This document shows, in pieces, positions 681 to 39,172 of a stretch of 39,456 bases of DNA (position 1 is the first letter of the stretch; each line of letters begins with the position of its first letter). Below the pieces are notes generated by a model. It saw only the letters and a program-made list of their open reading frames with translations, was not told the DNA's origin and made no database searches. Made by a program: the position numbers and the translations under genes. Origin of the DNA: a virus; IMG/VR virus record IMGVR_UViG_3300037258_001204, positions 1 through 39,456 of that record; one strand, given 5' to 3'.

Positions 681-1673
681 CTAAGATTCCTCAAGAATTC
701 GAAGCGCCGGCGCGCGCCGCGGCAGCCGTCGATACACCCTGCGCGTCATCCTGACGTCGGCGTGCGCGAGCCGGTCGGCGGCCTCCTGGTCGCTGCCCGC
801 ATCGCTCGCCGACTTCGCGCGCAGGTCGTGGAAATGAAATCGCGCCGACAACCCAGCCTTCATCGCCCTGCGCATTAAACGCTGCCACTGGCTCTGAAAG
901 CCGTTCATAGAATACGGGCTGCCCTTGCGGTTGCAGATCAGCGCGCGCCGCATCTGCGGCCGCTCGCGCAGCAGCGCCTGCACTGTAAGGCGCAGCTCCT
1001 CGTTCCATTCAATCAGCTGGCGCTCGCCCGTCTTGCGCCGCTCGAAGCTGATCCCCTCATCTGTCAGGTGGCGGCGCTCGAGTCTTCGAATCGTCCCCTC
1101 ATCCATCCCGCCCAACAGCGCCAGATCCATCGCGTACCCGATCATCGGCTGCGCGAGATCTCGCACCAGCAAAAACTCCTCATCTGTCACATACCGCTCG
1201 CGCGGCTTTGACTGCGGCAGCTGCAGGCCGAAGCACGGATTGGGTCGCGTGCGTGCTCCGATGCGCCGCGCGAACGTCAGCAGCGTCGATAGCGCCCGCA
1301 CTTCGTGCCTCGCCTGTTCCGTCGCGCCGCGCCGGCGCCAAAAGTTCCACACATGGTGCGGCTCGATCGTCTCGGCCGGCATGTGGCCGAAGACGCGCGC
1401 GATCATCTTGAATTCGCGTCGACGGCTTTTCCGCGTCTCCTCAGCCTTCGTGCTGAGCTCCTCAACGTCAAAGCGCGCGATCAACTGGTCGATCGAATTG
1501 CCGGGCGCGGCCGCGCCCAGAAGCGATGCGAGGCGGCGAAGCGCCTCGGCGTAGTCGGCGCCCAGGCGCTTCCAGCTGCCGGCTCGATCGACGTAGTAGT
1601 ACGATCCCGACCGGAAATACACGCGCTGCGGCAGGTGCCTGTCGCTTTTTCTTTTTCTCCCCACGCCTGACAC
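681..1673 (-). CDS. int: Tyrosine recombinase (phage integrase), catalytic Arg I missing
   Basis: A 330-aa tyrosine recombinase starting at GTG, which has a GAGG site 7 nt upstream and follows the DUF4224 stop by one base. The N-terminus (RVYFRSGSYYYVDRAGSWKRLG) is the arm-binding domain typical of integrases found beside DUF4224. The catalytic domain has the beta-hairpin Lys (RKTGE), H282-x-x-R285 in FHFHDLR, H304 in LAHADV and Tyr314 in RRVYRR. The box I Arg, expected in a context like TGxRxGD, is replaced by Asp191 in LGGMDEGTI. Activity is therefore doubtful unless another Arg substitutes. It sits at the left end, as expected for the gene that made the attachment site. Confidence 0.9.
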   Translation of the reverse strand: MSGVGRKRKSDRHLPQRVYFRSGSYYYVDRAGSWKRLGADYAEALRRLASLLGAAAPGNSIDQLIARFDVEELSTKAEETRKSRRREFKMIARVFGHMPAETIEPHHVWNFWRRRGATEQARHEVRALSTLLTFARRIGARTRPNPCFGLQLPQSKPRERYVTDEEFLLVRDLAQPMIGYAMDLALLGGMDEGTIRRLERRHLTDEGISFERRKTGERQLIEWNEELRLTVQALLRERPQMRRALICNRKGSPYSMNGFQSQWQRLMRRAMKAGLSARFHFHDLRAKSASDAGSDQEAADRLAHADVRMTRRVYRRLPRRAPALRILEES

Positions 1674-1674
1674 G

Positions 1675-1878
1675 CTAATGCCTCGCCGGCAGCGCGTCAA
1701 AATTCGGCTCGATCGATGTCCTGGTCGGCCGGTCCGGAGCGATCGAATCGGCGCGCACGGTAGGGTGACCATCAGCCCGGACGAAATGCTGCACCCCGTT
1801 TTTTCTGAGCCACCCGATCTGCCGCGCCGGCTGGCGGTAGCCGGTGAGCTCCTCGAGCTGCTCGCGCGTCAGAAACAT
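1675..1878 (-). CDS. DUF4224 domain protein
   Basis: A 67-aa protein beginning MFLTREQLEELTGYRQPARQ, the hallmark of DUF4224, with the WLRKNGVQHF continuation. Members are small and nearly always lie just upstream of a phage integrase. An excisionase-like or integrase-accessory role is commonly inferred but I know of no proof. The ATG was chosen because the conserved domain starts there; the frame stays open upstream to about 2019, but that part has no domain character and overlaps a better candidate gene. Its stop (TAG) is one base before the integrase GTG, so the two are translationally coupled. Confidence 0.8.
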   Translation of the reverse strand: MFLTREQLEELTGYRQPARQIGWLRKNGVQHFVRADGHPTVRADSIAPDRPTRTSIEPNFDALPARH

Positions 1879-4282: not shown

Positions 4283-5038
4283 ATGGCGCGACGTGACAGG
4301 GAAATCTCGGCAGCTGCGCCGCCGGTCGCGGGATCCACTGTCTTACCGATCTGGCCGCAGCGCCAGATCGCCCGCTGGCGTGACGCCATTCTCGACGACG
4401 AGAAGCTATCCGCCGGCGAGAAGCTCACGGCCATGGCGATCGCGCGCTTCGCCGACAGCGCTTCCGCCAAGACCTTCGCTTCTGCGCCGCGCCTGGCGCG
4501 CCTGGCGAGCCTGGCCGAGCGCAGCGTGCGCACCCATACCCTGCGACTGATCGAGGCCGGCTACGTGCGTGCGGTGCGCAAGCCGCAGCGCTCCAGCCGC
4601 GCCTGGGCGACGCGCGAGCTGGTGCTGCTGCTGCCGCGAGGTGCGGCAACCATTGCCGGACCACAGAGCCGAGGTGCGGCAACGGTTGCCGCAGCACAGG
4701 CTCGAGGTGCGGCAAAAAACGACGCGAGGTGCGGCAAAAAACGACGCGAGGTGCGGCAACGGTTGCCTACTATCCCGTATATATCCAGATCTATCCCGGG
4801 GCCCGCCGCGCCGGCCGACTTTGCGGAGTCGGCCGCGCTGGGCCCGGAGATCGAGGCGCAGATCGGCGAGCTCGCGCACGCCGGCATGACCAGCGCGGCG
4901 ATCGCCAAGCGCCTGCGCCGCGAGACCCCGCATGTCCTGAGCACCCGGCAGGTCGACGCGGTCCTGGCGCGCCAGCAGCGCTCGCTTCCGCTGGGGCCTT
5001 GCCTGGTGGCAGCGGACAAGCGGACGACTGGCAAATGA
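4283..5038 (+). CDS. Replication initiator with winged-helix domain (lambda O-like role)
   Basis: A 251-aa protein. Residues about 28-115 (LSAGEKLTAMAIARFADSAS, LARLASLAERSVRTHTLRLI, EAGYVRAV) form a winged helix-turn-helix like those of phage replication initiators. The next part is a repetitive RGAA-containing linker, a by-product of the DNA iterons inside the gene. The C-terminal region (about 190-235) has AGMTSAAIAKRLRRETPHVL, a second small helical module. By analogy with lambda O it should bind the iterons and recruit the host helicase. No helicase or helicase loader is seen nearby, so host DnaB and its loader are presumably used. Its stop overlaps the start of the second recombinase. 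Confidence 0.75.
   Translation: MARRDREISAAAPPVAGSTVLPIWPQRQIARWRDAILDDEKLSAGEKLTAMAIARFADSASAKTFASAPRLARLASLAERSVRTHTLRLIEAGYVRAVRKPQRSSRAWATRELVLLLPRGAATIAGPQSRGAATVAAAQARGAAKNDARCGKKRREVRQRLPTIPYISRSIPGPAAPADFAESAALGPEIEAQIGELAHAGMTSAAIAKRLRRETPHVLSTRQVDAVLARQQRSLPLGPCLVAADKRTTGK
4637..4759 (+). repeat. Five phased iterons: predicted replication origin
   Basis: Five exact copies of CGAGGTGCGGCAA begin at 4637, 4670, 4703, 4725 and 4747. Their spacings of 33, 33, 22 and 22 bp are three and two turns of an 11-bp helix, so all face one side. A perfect 17-bp palindrome, GCGGCAACGGTTGCCGC, lies at 4677-4693, and shorter inverted copies follow iterons 1 and 5. Iterons within the initiator gene are the lambda O/ori arrangement. 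Confidence 0.8.
4768..4796. other. AT-richer stretch beside the iterons (candidate unwinding element)
   Basis: A 29-bp segment containing CCCGTATATATCC is about 62% A+T in an otherwise very GC-rich gene and directly follows the last iteron. This is where a DNA unwinding element would be expected. Confidence 0.5.
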
Positions 5039-9599: not shown

Positions 9600-9775
9600 G
9601 CCACACTCGCGCGCGGGAGGCCCTCGAGCGCGTCAGGCACTGCGCGCACGGAAGGGGACATGCACATCAGAGGATGAAGGCTGGACTTTCGGCGCGATTT
9701 CATTTCCATGACCTGCGCGCGAAGTCGGCGAGCGACGCGGATAGTGACCAGGAGGCCGCCGATTCGGCTCCCGCG
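9600..9775 (+). pseudogene. Decayed integrase fragment
   Basis: Bases 9673-9775 encode MKAGLSARFHFHDLRAKSAS and DQEAAD, the box II segment of the left-end integrase, at close to 90% DNA identity but in the opposite orientation. One inserted base after the DQEAAD codons breaks the frame before the catalytic His and Tyr. Upstream, in another frame, RQALRARKGT resembles RRALICNRKGS of the same protein, which suggests an internal deletion. It is non-functional and lies beside the zinc-ribbon pair. The remaining bases of the 9521-9899 gap show no further gene. Confidence 0.75.
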
Positions 9776-15229: not shown

Positions 15230-15592
15230 GTGCTTCGGTCGAACGTCTACAAGACGCCGCGACCGCACGAGATTGAGCTGCCCAGAAAGGACGACCTGGC
15301 GGAGATCCGGCGCTCGCACTGCGTCGCGGAATCCGGGCTGCTGCTCCAGGTCGTCGGCGACCCGCACCTGTGCTATTGCCAGTGTGCGGATTGCGGTCAG
15401 GAGGTCACCGAGTATTTCGTCGAGGTTTACTCGCCCTGCGCGCAATGGTGGTTCAAGACGCCGGGCCCGTGGTTCTACCCGATCGACTGGCTCAAGCGCG
15501 TCGACCCGCGCGATCCGGTGCAATACGAGCGCGTGCGCAACTACATGCCGCTGTGGCCGACTGAGCAGCAGATCGCGCTGGCAAATCGATGA
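15230..15592 (+). CDS. Late protein with Cys cluster, unknown
   Basis: A 120-aa protein, GTG start 2 nt after the previous stop. Residues 47-54 contain CYCQCADCG, a tight cysteine cluster that may bind zinc or iron-sulphur. An aromatic C-terminal half follows (CAQWWFKTPGPWFYPIDWLK). The stop overlaps the ATG of the repeat-protein gene. No match to a family I know. Confidence 0.55.
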   Translation: MLRSNVYKTPRPHEIELPRKDDLAEIRRSHCVAESGLLLQVVGDPHLCYCQCADCGQEVTEYFVEVYSPCAQWWFKTPGPWFYPIDWLKRVDPRDPVQYERVRNYMPLWPTEQQIALANR

Positions 15593-16623
15593 GCACATTT
15601 CGGCCGGTGCAGCCGCCGCAGCAGCCCGCGGTATTCTTTACACCTGGTGCTGCAGCGTCATTTCCGGCTGGCGCGCTTCAGCAGATCATCGGCAGATCTG
15701 GCTCGGACATCGCGGCACTCGATGAAGTACTGCCGCCGTTCATCGTGCAACCAGCGACGTCGCGCGTGATTTCGCCGCAACCCCTGCCGCCGATCGCGCC
15801 GCCGGCGCGCAGCGACCTGGCTGCGCTCGATGAAACGCTGCCGCCGTTTGTGATACCGATTCCGCCGCCGGCGGCTTCGAACGTGCCGCCGGCGAGCAGC
15901 TCGGCGCCGGCGACGTCGATTCGCGCCGATCTTGCGCCGCTGGACGAGGTGCTGCCGCCGTTCATCGTGCAACCGGCGATGTCGCGCGTGATTTCGCCAC
16001 CGGTGGCGCAATCGATCAGTCCGGCGGCGCGTAACGACCTGGCTGCGCTTGAGGAATCGCTGCCGCCGTTTTTCGTGCCGCTGCCTAGCGCGCCGCCCGC
16101 AAACGTGCCGCCGGCGAGAAGCTCGTCGATACCTGCGGCCGCGCGCTCGGAATTCGCGCCGCTGGACGAGGTGCTGCCGCCGTTCATCGTGCAACCAGGG
16201 ATGTCGCGCGTGATTTCGCCGCAACCCCTGCAGGCGATCGCGCCGCCGGCGCGCAGCGACCTGGCTGCGCTCGATGAAACGCTGCCGTATTTCACGCCGG
16301 CAGTAAGCGTCCCGCGCGGGATCGCGGTGAGCGCGATGATCCCTGCGCCGCGAGATTTCGCTGCTTACCAGCTGCCTCGATCGCCGTCACCTGGTCAGAT
16401 TCCGCGCTTTGTGCCGGCTGGCAGAATTGCTGCACCGGCGTTTGCGACCCTTGTCGATCGCGCAGCGCTGCAGCGGCAGATTTTCGCGCCGATCGTTTTC
16501 GAGATCATCAAGCCACCTGCCGATCGCGTGCTCGAGGCGTTCTACCAATCGCGCACATTGGTCGCGGTGTACGGCGATCGCAGGATCATCGTCACCTACC
16601 GCACGCGCACGCTGGAGGCGTGA
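15589..16623 (+). CDS. Pro-rich protein built of 74-residue tandem repeats
   Basis: A 344-aa protein in an ATGA overlap. Residues about 40-234 are 2.6 copies of a 74-residue unit, each made of two halves of about 37 residues. Every half starts with D-[LI]-A-[AP]-L-[DE]-E-x-L-P-P-F (six copies; the last has LPYF). Odd halves continue IVQPxxSRVISP; even halves are Pro/Ala-rich. No signal peptide. The C-terminal 60 residues (IFAPIVFEIIKPPADRVLEA ... VYGDRRIIVTYRTRTLEA) are a separate beta-rich domain, likely for assembly. It may be an extended virion or tether protein, or a docking array. No family recognised. Confidence 0.7.
   Translation: MSTFRPVQPPQQPAVFFTPGAAASFPAGALQQIIGRSGSDIAALDEVLPPFIVQPATSRVISPQPLPPIAPPARSDLAALDETLPPFVIPIPPPAASNVPPASSSAPATSIRADLAPLDEVLPPFIVQPAMSRVISPPVAQSISPAARNDLAALEESLPPFFVPLPSAPPANVPPARSSSIPAAARSEFAPLDEVLPPFIVQPGMSRVISPQPLQAIAPPARSDLAALDETLPYFTPAVSVPRGIAVSAMIPAPRDFAAYQLPRSPSPGQIPRFVPAGRIAAPAFATLVDRAALQRQIFAPIVFEIIKPPADRVLEAFYQSRTLVAVYGDRRIIVTYRTRTLEA
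15706..16290 (+). repeat. 222-bp tandem repeat (2.6 copies) in the Pro-rich gene
   Basis: Copies start at 15706, 15928 and 16150 (partial). Landmarks such as TTCATCGTGCAACC recur at 15739, 15961 and 16183, exactly 222 bp apart; copies 1 and 3 are nearly identical over about 125 bp. Confidence 0.9.
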
Positions 16624-35626: not shown

Positions 35627-36112
35627 GTGAACCTGGTGCTTCAAAGGCTGACGCCGAATGCCGTGGCGACGCAAGGCCTTTTGTCCGGACTTCCCCGGCA
35701 GCTCTTTTCGATCGAGCTGCCTTGGCACAATAACGATGCCAATCGGTCGTGCGTGCCGGCGGGCGTCTTCGACCTGGTCCCGTATCTCTCGCCGAAGCAC
35801 GGGCGCACCTACTGCCTGCGCAACGCCGAGCTCAAGATCCTCGGCGCCGGGATTCTCACGCCCGCGCAGGTCGCGGCTGGCTACCGCAGTTTATGCGAAC
35901 TGCACTCAGCGAACTGGGCGGCCGAGCTGCGCGGCTGCATCGCCTTCGGATTCGAATCGCACCCGATGCTCGATCCGCTCACAGGCCGCGTCGAGCCGGC
36001 GGTCGAGCACAGCGGCGATGCGATCGAGTACCTGCTCGAGCAGCTCGAGTGGGCGACGGCCGCGCACACGCTGACGATCGAGGATCTGGCCCCGCCGTCG
36101 GCGCCCGCGTGA
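35627..36112 (+). CDS. DUF5675 family protein (lysis-module candidate)
   Basis: A 161-aa protein: FSIELPWHNNDANRSCVPAG, VFDLVPYLSPKHGRTYCLRN, then GCIAFGFESHPMLDPLTG. The 'ELPW.(D/N)N....SC(I/V)PAGVY....SPK.GR' pattern is DUF5675, found in phage lysis or tail-end clusters. Biochemical role unknown; some members are proposed to act on the cell wall, which I infer from context only. It is one of two candidates for the missing endolysin. The stop overlaps the next GTG. Confidence 0.75.
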   Translation: MNLVLQRLTPNAVATQGLLSGLPRQLFSIELPWHNNDANRSCVPAGVFDLVPYLSPKHGRTYCLRNAELKILGAGILTPAQVAAGYRSLCELHSANWAAELRGCIAFGFESHPMLDPLTGRVEPAVEHSGDAIEYLLEQLEWATAAHTLTIEDLAPPSAPA

Positions 36113-36378
36113 CGGGCGCCCAGTCGAGCGACGACGGCCGCTACACGCTCGAGGAGTGGCAGCGCTATCAGCGCATGCAGGCCATTAAGGCGGATCTCGA
36201 CGCGGACATCGGGAAGCGCGACGAGGAAACAAAACGGGCGATCAAAGAAGCGGTAGACGAATGGCTCGATGAGAAATTCGCGCAGGTCGGCAAGTGGACG
36301 GTGCGCGGGATCATCGTGACGCTCTTCGGCGCCGCGGTGTGGTTCATCGTCTGGTCGAGGGGCCTGAGATTCCCCTGA
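36109..36378 (+). CDS. Coiled-coil membrane protein, XhlA/holin-like
   Basis: An 89-aa protein starting at GTG (GTGA overlap). Residues about 12-55 are a charged helix (YTLEEWQRYQRMQAIKADLD, KRDEETKRAIKEAVDEWLDE), followed by one transmembrane helix near the C-terminus (GIIVTLFGAAVWFIVW). One-span proteins with an N-terminal coiled coil are typical haemolysin XhlA-like partners of holins. Probably part of the lysis cassette. Confidence 0.65.
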   Translation: MTGAQSSDDGRYTLEEWQRYQRMQAIKADLDADIGKRDEETKRAIKEAVDEWLDEKFAQVGKWTVRGIIVTLFGAAVWFIVWSRGLRFP

Positions 36379-36445: not shown

Positions 36446-36607
36446 ATGCTGACCTACATCATCATCGCCGCCGTGGGCGTCGCCGCAGGACTGCTCATCG
36501 GCATCAACAATCCGACGCTGGCCGCCTCGGTCAAGAAGGCACTCGTTAGCGATGCCAGCAAGCTCGACGCTGCTCTGGCCACGGTGCGGGCCAAGCTCGG
36601 CAAGTGA
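36446..36607 (+). CDS. Small membrane protein in lysis cassette
   Basis: A 53-aa protein with a very strong AGGAGGAGG site. MLTYIIIAAVGVAAGLLIGI is a transmembrane helix, followed by NNPTLAASVKKALVSDASKL and an amphipathic tail. The upstream extension of the frame lacks a ribosome site. One-span topology allows a small holin or antiholin. Its stop overlaps the following GTG. Confidence 0.65.
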   Translation: MLTYIIIAAVGVAAGLLIGINNPTLAASVKKALVSDASKLDAALATVRAKLGK

Positions 36608-36894
36608 TCGGAAAGGCGCAACTGCTCCATGCGGCGGAGATTCTGGATTCGCTGCGGATCTTCCCGCGGCTATTCGTGGGGACCTACACCGTATGGGGCG
36701 GTGGCACCTGTTGGCAGGTGCTGCACTGGTATTTCGCGCAGCCCGCAGCCGAGCGCACCGTCCAGGATGCGGGCCTCGTGACCAGCGTCGTCACCGTGCT
36801 CGTCGGCTTCCTGACCACGATGTACCGCACCTATTCAGATAGCGGACGCGACTGGAATGCAAGGCCGGTCGATCCGATGAGGCCTCAACCATGA
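36604..36894 (+). CDS. Holin-like protein, two membrane segments
   Basis: A 96-aa protein starting at GTG in a GTGA overlap. LFVGTYTVWGGGTCWQVLHW forms one hydrophobic region and LVTSVVTVLVGFLTTMYRTY a second, with a hydrophilic C-terminal tail (DSGRDWNARPVDPMRPQP). Two membrane spans, the size, and the place directly before the spanin gene favour a holin. Family not certain. Confidence 0.65.
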   Translation: MIGKAQLLHAAEILDSLRIFPRLFVGTYTVWGGGTCWQVLHWYFAQPAAERTVQDAGLVTSVVTVLVGFLTTMYRTYSDSGRDWNARPVDPMRPQP

Positions 36895-37370
36895 ATGCGC
36901 TCGAGATCAAGCTCGCGGCGATCGCGATCGTCTCCGCACTGCTCGCCGGCGCGGCCTTCTACGAAGGCTGGGCGCACGGAACCGCGTCGGTGCAGGCGAA
37001 ATGGAATGTGGAAAAGCTCGGCGAGCAGAAGGCCGTCGAGGATGCGCAGGCTCGCGCGCTCGCGGCTGAACAGCAACAGGAGGCGGCCGTGCAGGCCGTG
37101 CAACAGGACTATGAAACGAAACTTCGCACTGCTGATGCTACCAGCACTGCTCTGTCTGGCCTCGTGCGCCAGTACGAAGACCGCCTTCGTCGCAGCGCCG
37201 TGCCCGCGCGTGCCGTCACCGCCGGCGGACCTGCTGCAGGCGCCGAAGTCGCCAGAGGCGACGGCGGTGTTGATGCAGCGGCTGCAGCAGCAATTGAAGC
37301 CTGCCAGTCAGACGCCGCCCAGCTCGGCACCCTGATCGAGTGGGTGCAGAAAACAACCGTCCAGGAGTAA
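36891..37370 (+). CDS. Rz: Rz-like inner-membrane spanin
   Basis: A 159-aa protein with an N-terminal membrane anchor (LAAIAIVSALLAGAAFYEGW) and a long periplasmic coiled coil (VQAKWNVEKLGEQKAVEDAQ, AAEQQQEAAVQAVQQDYETK), ending in an Ala-rich segment. This is the architecture of Rz i-spanins, which with Rz1 fuse inner and outer membranes at lysis. ATG overlaps the holin stop. A second gene is nested inside in another frame, confirming identity. Confidence 0.88.
   Translation: MNALEIKLAAIAIVSALLAGAAFYEGWAHGTASVQAKWNVEKLGEQKAVEDAQARALAAEQQQEAAVQAVQQDYETKLRTADATSTALSGLVRQYEDRLRRSAVPARAVTAGGPAAGAEVARGDGGVDAAAAAAIEACQSDAAQLGTLIEWVQKTTVQE
37111..37335 (+). CDS. Rz1: Rz1-like outer-membrane lipoprotein spanin, nested in Rz
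   Basis: A 74-aa protein in the +1 frame entirely within Rz. MKRNFALLMLPALLCLASC has a lipoprotein signal with lipobox LASC (Cys19). The mature part is Pro-rich (CPRVPSPPADLLQAPKSP; QTPPSSAP), as expected for o-spanins. AGGA lies 4 nt before the ATG. It pairs with the Rz C-terminus across the periplasm. Confidence 0.88.
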   Translation: MKRNFALLMLPALLCLASCASTKTAFVAAPCPRVPSPPADLLQAPKSPEATAVLMQRLQQQLKPASQTPPSSAP

Positions 37371-37375
37371 TTACG

Positions 37376-38971
37376 ATGAAACGCTACCTCATTGCGGCAA
37401 CGGCCGCCGTGCTCGCGTGCGCGGGTGCTCTAGCCGCGAATCCGGTCACGACCACGGTCGGCCCCTACAACGTCAACGGTGTTGGCAGCTTCGCGACGTT
37501 CGCGGCCGCGCAGGCATCGATCGCGGCGCCGGCGCCGGGCAAATCCGCCTCGGCCGTGATCGCGGCCCAGGTGACGGTGACGAACGCCGAATCTCCTTCT
37601 GGCACCGTCGTCCTGGCTGGCAAGGGGCAGATCGTCGACCACGCCGGCAACGTCTGGTCGACGGAAGCGACGGGCTGCAATTCTCTTCTGCCGGCGCCCT
37701 GCGTGACGGAAAACGGAACGGAAGCGGCCTACGTCACGACGGGCGCAGGCAATTCGCTCTCCGGCAACGTGCTCCTGCTTTTTTACGTCTCCGGAAACCT
37801 GTATCACCAGGCCAAGGACTGCGGCATTTGGCAGTCGAACGGCACGGTGTGGGTGCGCTCAGCCGCGCCGCCCAGCGTGACGCTGCCGCCCTGCAGCGCC
37901 GTCAGCTCGAGCAGCTCCTCGAGCTCGAGCAGCTCGTCATCGTCCAGCGGCGGCAGCTCCAGCAGTTCGAGCAGCTCCTCGAGCAGTGGCTCGAGCTCCA
38001 GTAGCAGCGGCAGCTCCTCCGGATCCGGCGGCTCGCCGAGCGCCAGCGCGGCCGCGCTGCTGAAGTATCTGCAGGGCTTGTCTGGCCAGACCAAGCACCT
38101 CCTGCTCGGTCAGCACAGCGGCTATTGGGACGGTCCCTCGGGCGGCGGTACGCCCAACAGCGCGGCGATGGACACCATCGCGCCGATCCCGACGCTCGCG
38201 GGCGTCGGCGGCAAGCAGGTGGCGATCGCCGGCTTCACCAACGATCAATCCGGCGACAGCGAGGACGTCGTTGGCCTGTCCAACGCGTGGCTCGCGCAGG
38301 GCGGCATCGTGCTGGTCTCGCAGTGGCCGCGTAATCCGCTCGCGGCGATCGGCAGCACGAACTTTGCAAATCTGATCGTCGCCGGCACTGCTGAATACAA
38401 GCAATGGCACAGCTACCTCGACACTCAGATCGCGAAGTTTCAGCAGATCAACGGCGCCTTTATCTATCGGCCCTTCGTGGAGCTTGACGGCTCGTGGAGC
38501 TGGTGGGTACCGACTGAGGGCTCGCAGCAGGGGACATTCAAGACGCTCTGGCAGCAGACGCACGACTACGTCGAGTCGAAGATGCCGGGCAAGATCGTCT
38601 GGCTATTCAGCCTCAACAACTTCGAGAGCGCGGCGACCTGCGCGGCCTGGTATCCGGGCAGCGCCTACGTCGATGCCGTCGGCTTCGATGAGTACCCGCC
38701 GCTCGCCGCCGGCATCACGCCTGGTTACACCTGGGCGCTGACTACCGGCAAGGTGATCATGCTGCCGGAAGTGGGCGGCAACGTGACCGAGTCAAACGAG
38801 CCTGCCAACAGCTTCGATAACAGCACGATCTTGACCACCGTCAAGGCCAATTGGCCCAAGGTCGCTGCTATCGTGGTGTGGTCCAACGGTGAGCAGATCC
38901 CGATTCAGAAGGGCGCCGGGCCGCTCCTGAACGATCCTGCGGTGGTCACGCTCAGCGACTTGCCGCATTGA
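37376..38971 (+). CDS. Secreted GH26-like glycoside hydrolase with polyserine linker
   Basis: A 531-aa protein. Signal peptide MKRYLIAATAAVLACAGALA; an unrecognised beta-rich N-terminal domain (about 22-172, two Cys pairs); a Ser/Gly linker (about 175-222); and a C-terminal catalytic domain. HLLLGQHSGYWDG, FIYRPFVELDGSWSWW (candidate acid/base Glu369), DAVGFDEYPP and LPEVGG (candidate nucleophile Glu465) follow the GH26 beta-mannanase pattern (RPxHExNGxWFWW). Polyserine linkers are common in exported polysaccharidases of Gammaproteobacteria. The ribosome site overlaps the Rz stop, so it sits in the lysis operon. Lysogenic conversion enzyme or depolymerase; not a typical endolysin. Confidence 0.75.
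   Translation: MKRYLIAATAAVLACAGALAANPVTTTVGPYNVNGVGSFATFAAAQASIAAPAPGKSASAVIAAQVTVTNAESPSGTVVLAGKGQIVDHAGNVWSTEATGCNSLLPAPCVTENGTEAAYVTTGAGNSLSGNVLLLFYVSGNLYHQAKDCGIWQSNGTVWVRSAAPPSVTLPPCSAVSSSSSSSSSSSSSSSGGSSSSSSSSSSSGSSSSSSGSSSGSGGSPSASAAALLKYLQGLSGQTKHLLLGQHSGYWDGPSGGGTPNSAAMDTIAPIPTLAGVGGKQVAIAGFTNDQSGDSEDVVGLSNAWLAQGGIVLVSQWPRNPLAAIGSTNFANLIVAGTAEYKQWHSYLDTQIAKFQQINGAFIYRPFVELDGSWSWWVPTEGSQQGTFKTLWQQTHDYVESKMPGKIVWLFSLNNFESAATCAAWYPGSAYVDAVGFDEYPPLAAGITPGYTWALTTGKVIMLPEVGGNVTESNEPANSFDNSTILTTVKANWPKVAAIVVWSNGEQIPIQKGAGPLLNDPAVVTLSDLPH
37899..38040 (+). repeat. Low-complexity Ser/Gly codon tract
   Basis: AGC, TCG, TCC and AGT codons alternate with few Gly codons for about 140 bp, encoding the interdomain linker of the GH26-like protein. 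The repeated AGCTCGAGCAGC units could slip, changing linker length. Confidence 0.85.
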
Positions 38972-39066: not shown

Positions 39067-39116
39067 TTCCGCGGCACATATTCAATCGGATCAAGGCGCG
39101 CGGCGTGGTTCGCGCG

Positions 39117-39166
39117 AGCGCCTCCTAAGCGCTAGGTCGTCGGTTCAACTCCGGCCGGGGGCGCCA
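39117..39166 (+). other. attR: 3' half of tRNA-Arg(CCT)
   Basis: The anticodon arm AGCGC-CTCCTAA-GCGCT (anticodon CCT at 39124-39126), variable AGGTC, T arm GTCGG-TTCAACT-CCGGC, acceptor strand CGGGGGC, discriminator G and CCA are all present. The upstream D arm and the 5' acceptor strand (expected GCCCCCG) are absent. This is the duplicated 3' part of a tRNA gene, as left by integration; the crossover should lie within it. The whole tRNA is expected left of this window. Confidence 0.88.
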
Positions 39167-39172
39167 GTAATT

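Follow-up and report, generated by a model that had tools for sequence, protein, structure and literature searches.

A GH26-family polysaccharidase gene of apparently bacterial origin behind the spanin genes of a soil prophage

The DNA analysed here (hereafter the window) is the whole stretch of 39,456 nucleotides of the IMG/VR record IMGVR_UViG_3300037258_001204. It carries a soil prophage of a temperate HK97-type phage, with a TerL closest to that of Pseudomonas phage PAJU2 (57% identity). The features relevant to its two ends are as follows:

681-1772, minus strand: tyrosine integrase, at the opposite prophage end
35627-36112, plus strand: DUF5675 protein in the endolysin position (Pfam/PHROG search)
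36109-36378, plus strand: holin candidate, small protein whose C-terminal part has a transmembrane segment (by eye; PHROG search without match)
36446-36607, plus strand: holin candidate, 53-aa membrane protein (by eye; no PHROG match)
36604-36894, plus strand: holin candidate, 96-aa membrane protein (by eye; phrog_10198, function unknown)
36891-37370, plus strand: Rz-like i-spanin (phrog_2466, 5.3e-8)
37111-37335, plus strand: nested Rz1-like o-spanin, Pro-rich, with a LASC lipobox (by eye)
37363-37367, plus strand: Shine-Dalgarno sequence AGGAG within the final Rz codons, 8 nt before the GH26 ATG
37376-38971, plus strand: GH26 enzyme gene, P0001 (open reading frame, Pfam, solved relatives, AF2, Foldseek)
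39105-39168, plus strand: attR, 3' part of tRNA-Arg(CCT) (92-98% match to tRNA-Arg(CCT) genes)

The GH26 gene is preceded by a tail-fibre gene, the DUF5675 gene, the small membrane proteins and the Rz-like spanin. The lysis region of the window yielded no recognised endolysin domain, and in the close phage relative L043 an ordinary phrog_315 endolysin occupies the position held here by DUF5675. Only 5 nt separate the Rz stop codon (37368-37370) from the GH26 ATG (37376), and the ribosome site of the enzyme gene lies inside Rz, coupling it to the holin/endolysin/spanin cassette as would be expected of an exoenzyme released in a type 10 secretion-like manner. A scan covering sigma-70 patterns only returned no promoter-like site from 36300 to the GH26 gene, and no promoter-like or terminator-like site above chance adjoining that gene. 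On its other side, the enzyme gene is the last one before the tRNA-Arg(CCT) att remnant. Both the ribosome site shared with Rz and the position next to attR had been pointed out in a preliminary description of this DNA, and both stand. No intact tRNA was found in the window, and attL lies outside the record.

The right half of the window has no DNA similarity to known phages, and the near phage relatives L042 and L043 either end before the lysis region or differ there. Another IMG/VR record (L172, IMGVR_UViG_3300036790_000800) is 99.98% identical to window positions 7951-28489 and ends before the GH26 gene; judging from this identity, the same phage is present in a second record.

The open reading frame starts with ATG, has no internal stop and encodes 531 aa, arranged as follows:

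37376-37435, plus strand: signal peptide, residues 1-20 (SPase I site ALA/A, read by eye)
37589-37909, plus strand: N-terminal module, residues 72-178 (37-41% identity to modules on GH5 proteins of two bacterial genomes, G001 and G005)
37904-38032, plus strand: polyserine/glycine linker, residues ~177-219 (sequence)
38036-38950, plus strand: GH26 catalytic domain, residues 221-525 (Pfam, AF2)
38318-38338, plus strand: SQWPRNP, residues 315-321, in which Trp317 replaces a subsite -1 His (BoMan26B His-136; alignment, PMC6556568)
38477-38500, plus strand: V368-E369 (acid/base)-LDGSW-S375, where Val and Ser occupy the positions of BoMan26B His-200 and Phe-207 (alignment, PMC6556568)
38768-38770, plus strand: catalytic nucleophile Glu465 (alignment of GH26 domains)

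The signal peptide reads MKRYLIAATAAVLACAGALA. A weak alternative lipobox (VLAC, residues 12-15) was also seen by eye, so that lipidation of the enzyme is possible; its relatives, whose motifs are LAGC and LAAC, appear to be lipoproteins. Serine codons in the linker are mixed (AGC/TCG/TCC/TCA/AGT), which means that this segment is not a simple DNA repeat, and the GC and GC3 values of the gene are those of the phage genes. The reading of the frame and its sequence agrees with the initial account of a signal peptide, a Ser-rich linker and an overall build typical of bacterial secreted enzymes.

The assignment of the catalytic half to family GH26 is supported by several lines of evidence. The Pfam profile PF02156 matches residues 221-525 and is covered nearly end to end (E 2.3e-22, 80.2 bits against a curated cut-off of 20.2). 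By sequence, the closest solved relative is the Klebsiella mannanase KMAN (7EET, E 1.3e-19), with Bacillus mannanases also among the best matches. An AF2 model of the domain, built from 28 natural sequences, has a pLDDT of 84.7 and a pTM of 0.89 and shows strands alternating with helices; the top Foldseek matches of this model are the GH26 enzymes 3CBW (E 3.1e-19), 7EET (1.4e-18) and 2WHK, with a TM of 0.80. Both catalytic glutamates, the acid/base E369 (38480-38482) and the nucleophile E465, are kept in columns that are invariant in 31 aligned GH26 domains. Together these results confirm a GH26 (beta/alpha)8 barrel and rule out a chance match, so that the core with both Glu recognised at the outset is borne out.

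Close relatives of the domain proved scarce. None turned up when IMG/VR and GTDB contigs were scanned with the single sequence, and alignment-based scans did find some. Among the best 80 bacterial loci of a scan with a four-row alignment, one stood out (L076, JABCZO010000016.1; 44% identity, E 1e-68, the next being 1e-24), which lies on the chromosome in a Gammaproteobacteria MAG and encodes a protein 44-48% identical to that of the window, with a lipoprotein signal and a polySer linker. Searching 60 related genomes brought in L162 of G005 (45% identity), and wider draws of 117 genomes from the order and 120 from the family contributed only G250, 32% identical and with the usual His. In a tree of 109 GH26 domains, the window, L076 and L162 form one clade with 100/100 support, and the IMG/VR phage GH26s L009-L013 fall on another branch. 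A position among phage virion enzymes, which the preliminary description had named as the result that would speak against its reading, is thus not what the tree returned: the window sides with bacterial enzymes. Since it groups with chromosomal genes and apart from phage GH26s, the gene is, as far as its sequence tells, of bacterial origin and not a known virion enzyme. A chromosomal sister clade and a location 5' of an att remnant identify it as prophage cargo (a moron or auxiliary metabolic gene), its dispensability being presumed. Beyond the tRNA remnant, no convincing match to the DNA was found in relatives of G001.

The two chromosomal enzymes of soil Gammaproteobacteria MAGs share with the window protein the Ser-rich linker and a secretion signal, but differ in having typical lipoboxes (LAGC, LAAC) and in lying outside prophages. 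Ahead of the linker, an Ig-like domain (He_PIG in Pfam) is present in L162 and no N-terminal domain is recognised in L076, whereas modules of the window type occur in their genomes on GH5 proteins instead. The N-terminal module had been called novel; it matches no Pfam family, yet the relatives on GH5 proteins belong to G001 and G005, the genomes carrying the nearest GH26 domains. A profile search of the 60 related genomes found the module in two of them only, the same two that have this GH26 clade, and no relatives of it were found in IMG/VR. Because the module sits on GH5 enzymes of these same genomes, both halves of the window protein look host-derived, with parts that co-occur in one bacterial group. 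Its AF2 model was poor (pLDDT 55), below use for a fold search, and a binding role can be guessed from its place in the protein. A weak match in the Agrobacterium phages Atu_ph02/03 runs antisense to an annotated tail-fibre gene and was put down to chance.

Many phage polysaccharidases are tail proteins, and the enzyme could accordingly be a tail-attached depolymerase that opens the capsule during adsorption, the more so as some IMG/VR GH26 domains reside in very large phage-contig proteins (L009, L013). The window protein, however, has a signal peptide, no tail PHROG match and no tail-attachment domain; its gene follows the Rz/Rz1 lysis genes instead of lying among tail genes, its domain does not group with phage GH26s in the tree, and a BFVD search gave weak TIM-barrel matches only. 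A virion-borne function is consequently very unlikely.

GH26 beta-mannanases have, besides the two Glu, six conserved residues at subsite -1, which in BoMan26B are His-136, Arg-197, His-200, Phe-207, Tyr-263 and Trp-314 (PMC6556568), and His, Trp, Phe, Tyr and Trp have been listed as conserved at -1/+1 (PMC6381184). In the window, three of the six are replaced (His-136 by Trp, His-200 by Val and Phe-207 by Ser), with Arg365, Tyr440 and Trp502 retained along with the catalytic Glu. Compared with characterised beta-mannanases (KMAN 7EET, Bacillus Man26 2WHK/3CBW, BoMan26B and YpenMan26A), the domain is alike in fold, in both Glu and in the Arg, Tyr and Trp of the -1/+1 region, but departs from them in the Trp/Val/Ser set and in the absence of the usual CDY/GDY stretch, at 22-29% identity. 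The His preceding the acid/base is kept in nearly all other aligned GH26 domains. Outside the window clade the exceptions are L009, which has Val as in the window, and L013, which reads HMVE. With half of the conserved subsite -1 residues replaced, the window enzyme is probably not a standard mannanase and ordinary beta-mannan is a doubtful substrate, contrary to the mannan-like polymers first proposed among its targets.

Such losses could also mark a passenger, recently captured with a crippled active site and of no use to phage or host, and the long branch of the window in the GH26 tree (0.79, against 0.31 and 0.32 for its two relatives) is consistent with this. The same three replacements are, however, found in L076 and L162; they therefore predate phage capture, which argues against decay of the active site. 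The retained Glu, Arg365, Tyr440 and Trp502, a frame intact over 531 codons and a base composition matching the phage also make a dead enzyme improbable. The branch with a Trp/Val/Ser subsite -1 offers a concrete lead to a GH26 activity that nobody has measured.

If the enzyme is active, it may serve the lysogen, which would secrete it and live on beta-mannan from plants or fungi, or on a related hemicellulose, as expected of a gene of the classical auxiliary metabolic kind. The arrangement of signal peptide, linker and accessory module is that of saprophyte enzymes, the relatives are chromosomal genes of soil bacteria, and cargo under its own promoter is often found in the last place before attR. 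There are also viral parallels: activity was demonstrated for a GH5 endomannanase of viral origin from soil (PMC6786970), and the viral CAZymes listed for mangroves include mannanase (GH26) (PMC6460857). Against such lysogenic conversion stand the ribosome site inside Rz, with no promoter-like site between the genes in the sigma-70-only scan, and the replaced subsite -1 residues, so that this role appears somewhat unlikely.

GH26 genes in prophages had been called unusual; they are uncommon, yet the window is not the sole case. A full GH26 domain is present in at least five further IMG/VR phage records, a mangrove-soil phage has genes annotated as endoglucanase and mannanase, and mangrove viral CAZymes include mannanase (GH26), as cited above. 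The soil viral CAZymes resemble the window gene as phage-borne polysaccharidases presumed to be auxiliary, but are mostly on non-proviral contigs or belong to GH5, and the consulted parts of the two reports describe no link of the gene to lysis genes. Two INPHARED entries considered as phage GH26 precedents (MT837087 and MT836656) were rejected: deposited as 'Bacteriophage sp.' (L007 and L008, respectively), they showed no phage genes in the frames read, their readable genes look bacterial, and L008 has a SusC/SusD-type locus with PUL genes. Two of the IMG/VR records contain frames of approximately 1,600 codons that join GH5, GDSL-lipase and GH26 domains (L009:4929-9737 and L013:4935-9722).

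Proximity to lysis genes is also seen elsewhere, in cases selected in the course of the analysis. In three of these IMG/VR phage records (L010, L011 and L012, on G145, G146 and G147; contigs of 50-67 kb), a distance of 0.2-0.7 kb separates the GH26 domain from the sole endolysin match of the record. The chance of such proximity is roughly 5% in each, but the three cases are not independent, L011 being the sister of L012 and L010 belonging to the same wider branch. No endolysin match was found near GH26 in L009, L013 and the other records, many of which are fragments. These three phages are like the window in having GH26 near a lysis gene, but their domains belong to another GH26 clade and keep the His before the acid/base, and L010 and L011 start without a signal peptide. 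Furthermore, three Klebsiella conjugative plasmids carry a KMAN homologue directly upstream of holin-endolysin-Rz genes. In K. pneumoniae pKP121-2 (NZ_CP031851; L002:2829-4008), the leaderless homologue heads a GH26-holin-endolysin-Rz series followed by a colicin-like bacteriocin gene, and has two overlapping LexA-like boxes (15/20 each) ~120 nt ahead of it. This cluster has in common with the window a GH26 gene adjoining a phage-type lysis cassette; it differs in its ordinary mannanase active site, the lack of a signal peptide, the position upstream of the cassette and the plasmid location. Taken together, the three phages and the Klebsiella plasmid are suggestive of mobile GH26 genes that, uncommon as they are, recur beside lysis genes. 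Release of exoproteins by lysis cassettes of phage type has been described (PMC10101115).

The best explanation for the window gene, which we hold tentatively and at a little under even confidence, is that of a captured host polysaccharidase made late, released at lysis and acting on a matrix polymer other than mannan. In the corresponding model, the gene of a host-derived secreted GH26 polysaccharidase would close the lysis operon of a temperate HK97-type phage as cargo and be transcribed late together with Rz/Rz1. The enzyme would be exported by Sec to the periplasm or the outer membrane, possibly as a lipoprotein, and would be liberated once the outer membrane is opened by the spanins. Its substrate would then be not ordinary beta-mannan but another polymer, most likely an exopolysaccharide that the host group makes itself, and the cutting of this matrix may ease virion escape and spread. 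We infer both the identity of the polymer and the timing of expression. Of the roles suggested earlier, matrix release at lysis is therefore favoured, and digestion by the lysogen becomes its rival.

The signal peptide counts against release by lysis, for which it is superfluous; its absence from L010, L011 and the Klebsiella protein is what would be expected, as release by lysis needs none. Regarding the polymer, L162 in G005 lies between two GH5 genes and beside WecG, GT2, GT9, UbiA, Wzy_C and heptose-pathway-type genes. This neighbourhood hints at a self-made surface polysaccharide, in one genome only, and the neighbours of L076 differ, being fdhD/mobA/xdh-type genes with no polysaccharide-gene neighbourhood.

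A broader and unlikely extension, offered as speculation, is that mobile elements repeatedly place GH26 genes in lysis operons, so that virions or bacteriocins would be freed along with a matrix-loosening enzyme, the window representing a branch of new specificity directed against the exopolysaccharide of its own host group. If release at lysis is true, some phages would carry a matrix-clearing enzyme freed with the burst and not built into the tail, which would explain in a simple way how virions get out of slimy colonies and would make the distinction between 'metabolic' cargo and lysis genes less sharp.

Three repeats were observed elsewhere in the window. An inverted repeat of 90 nt (775-864 and 9673-9762, 91% complementary) has one arm inside the integrase gene, and for this reason the second arm may be an integrase fragment. 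Three tandem 222-nt repeats at 15701-16350 lie inside the open reading frame 15589-16623 and correspond to 74-aa protein repeats. Finally, a 22-nt repeat, CGAGGTGCGGCAAAAAACGACG, is present in four to five copies at 4635-4767, and these copies are possibly operators.
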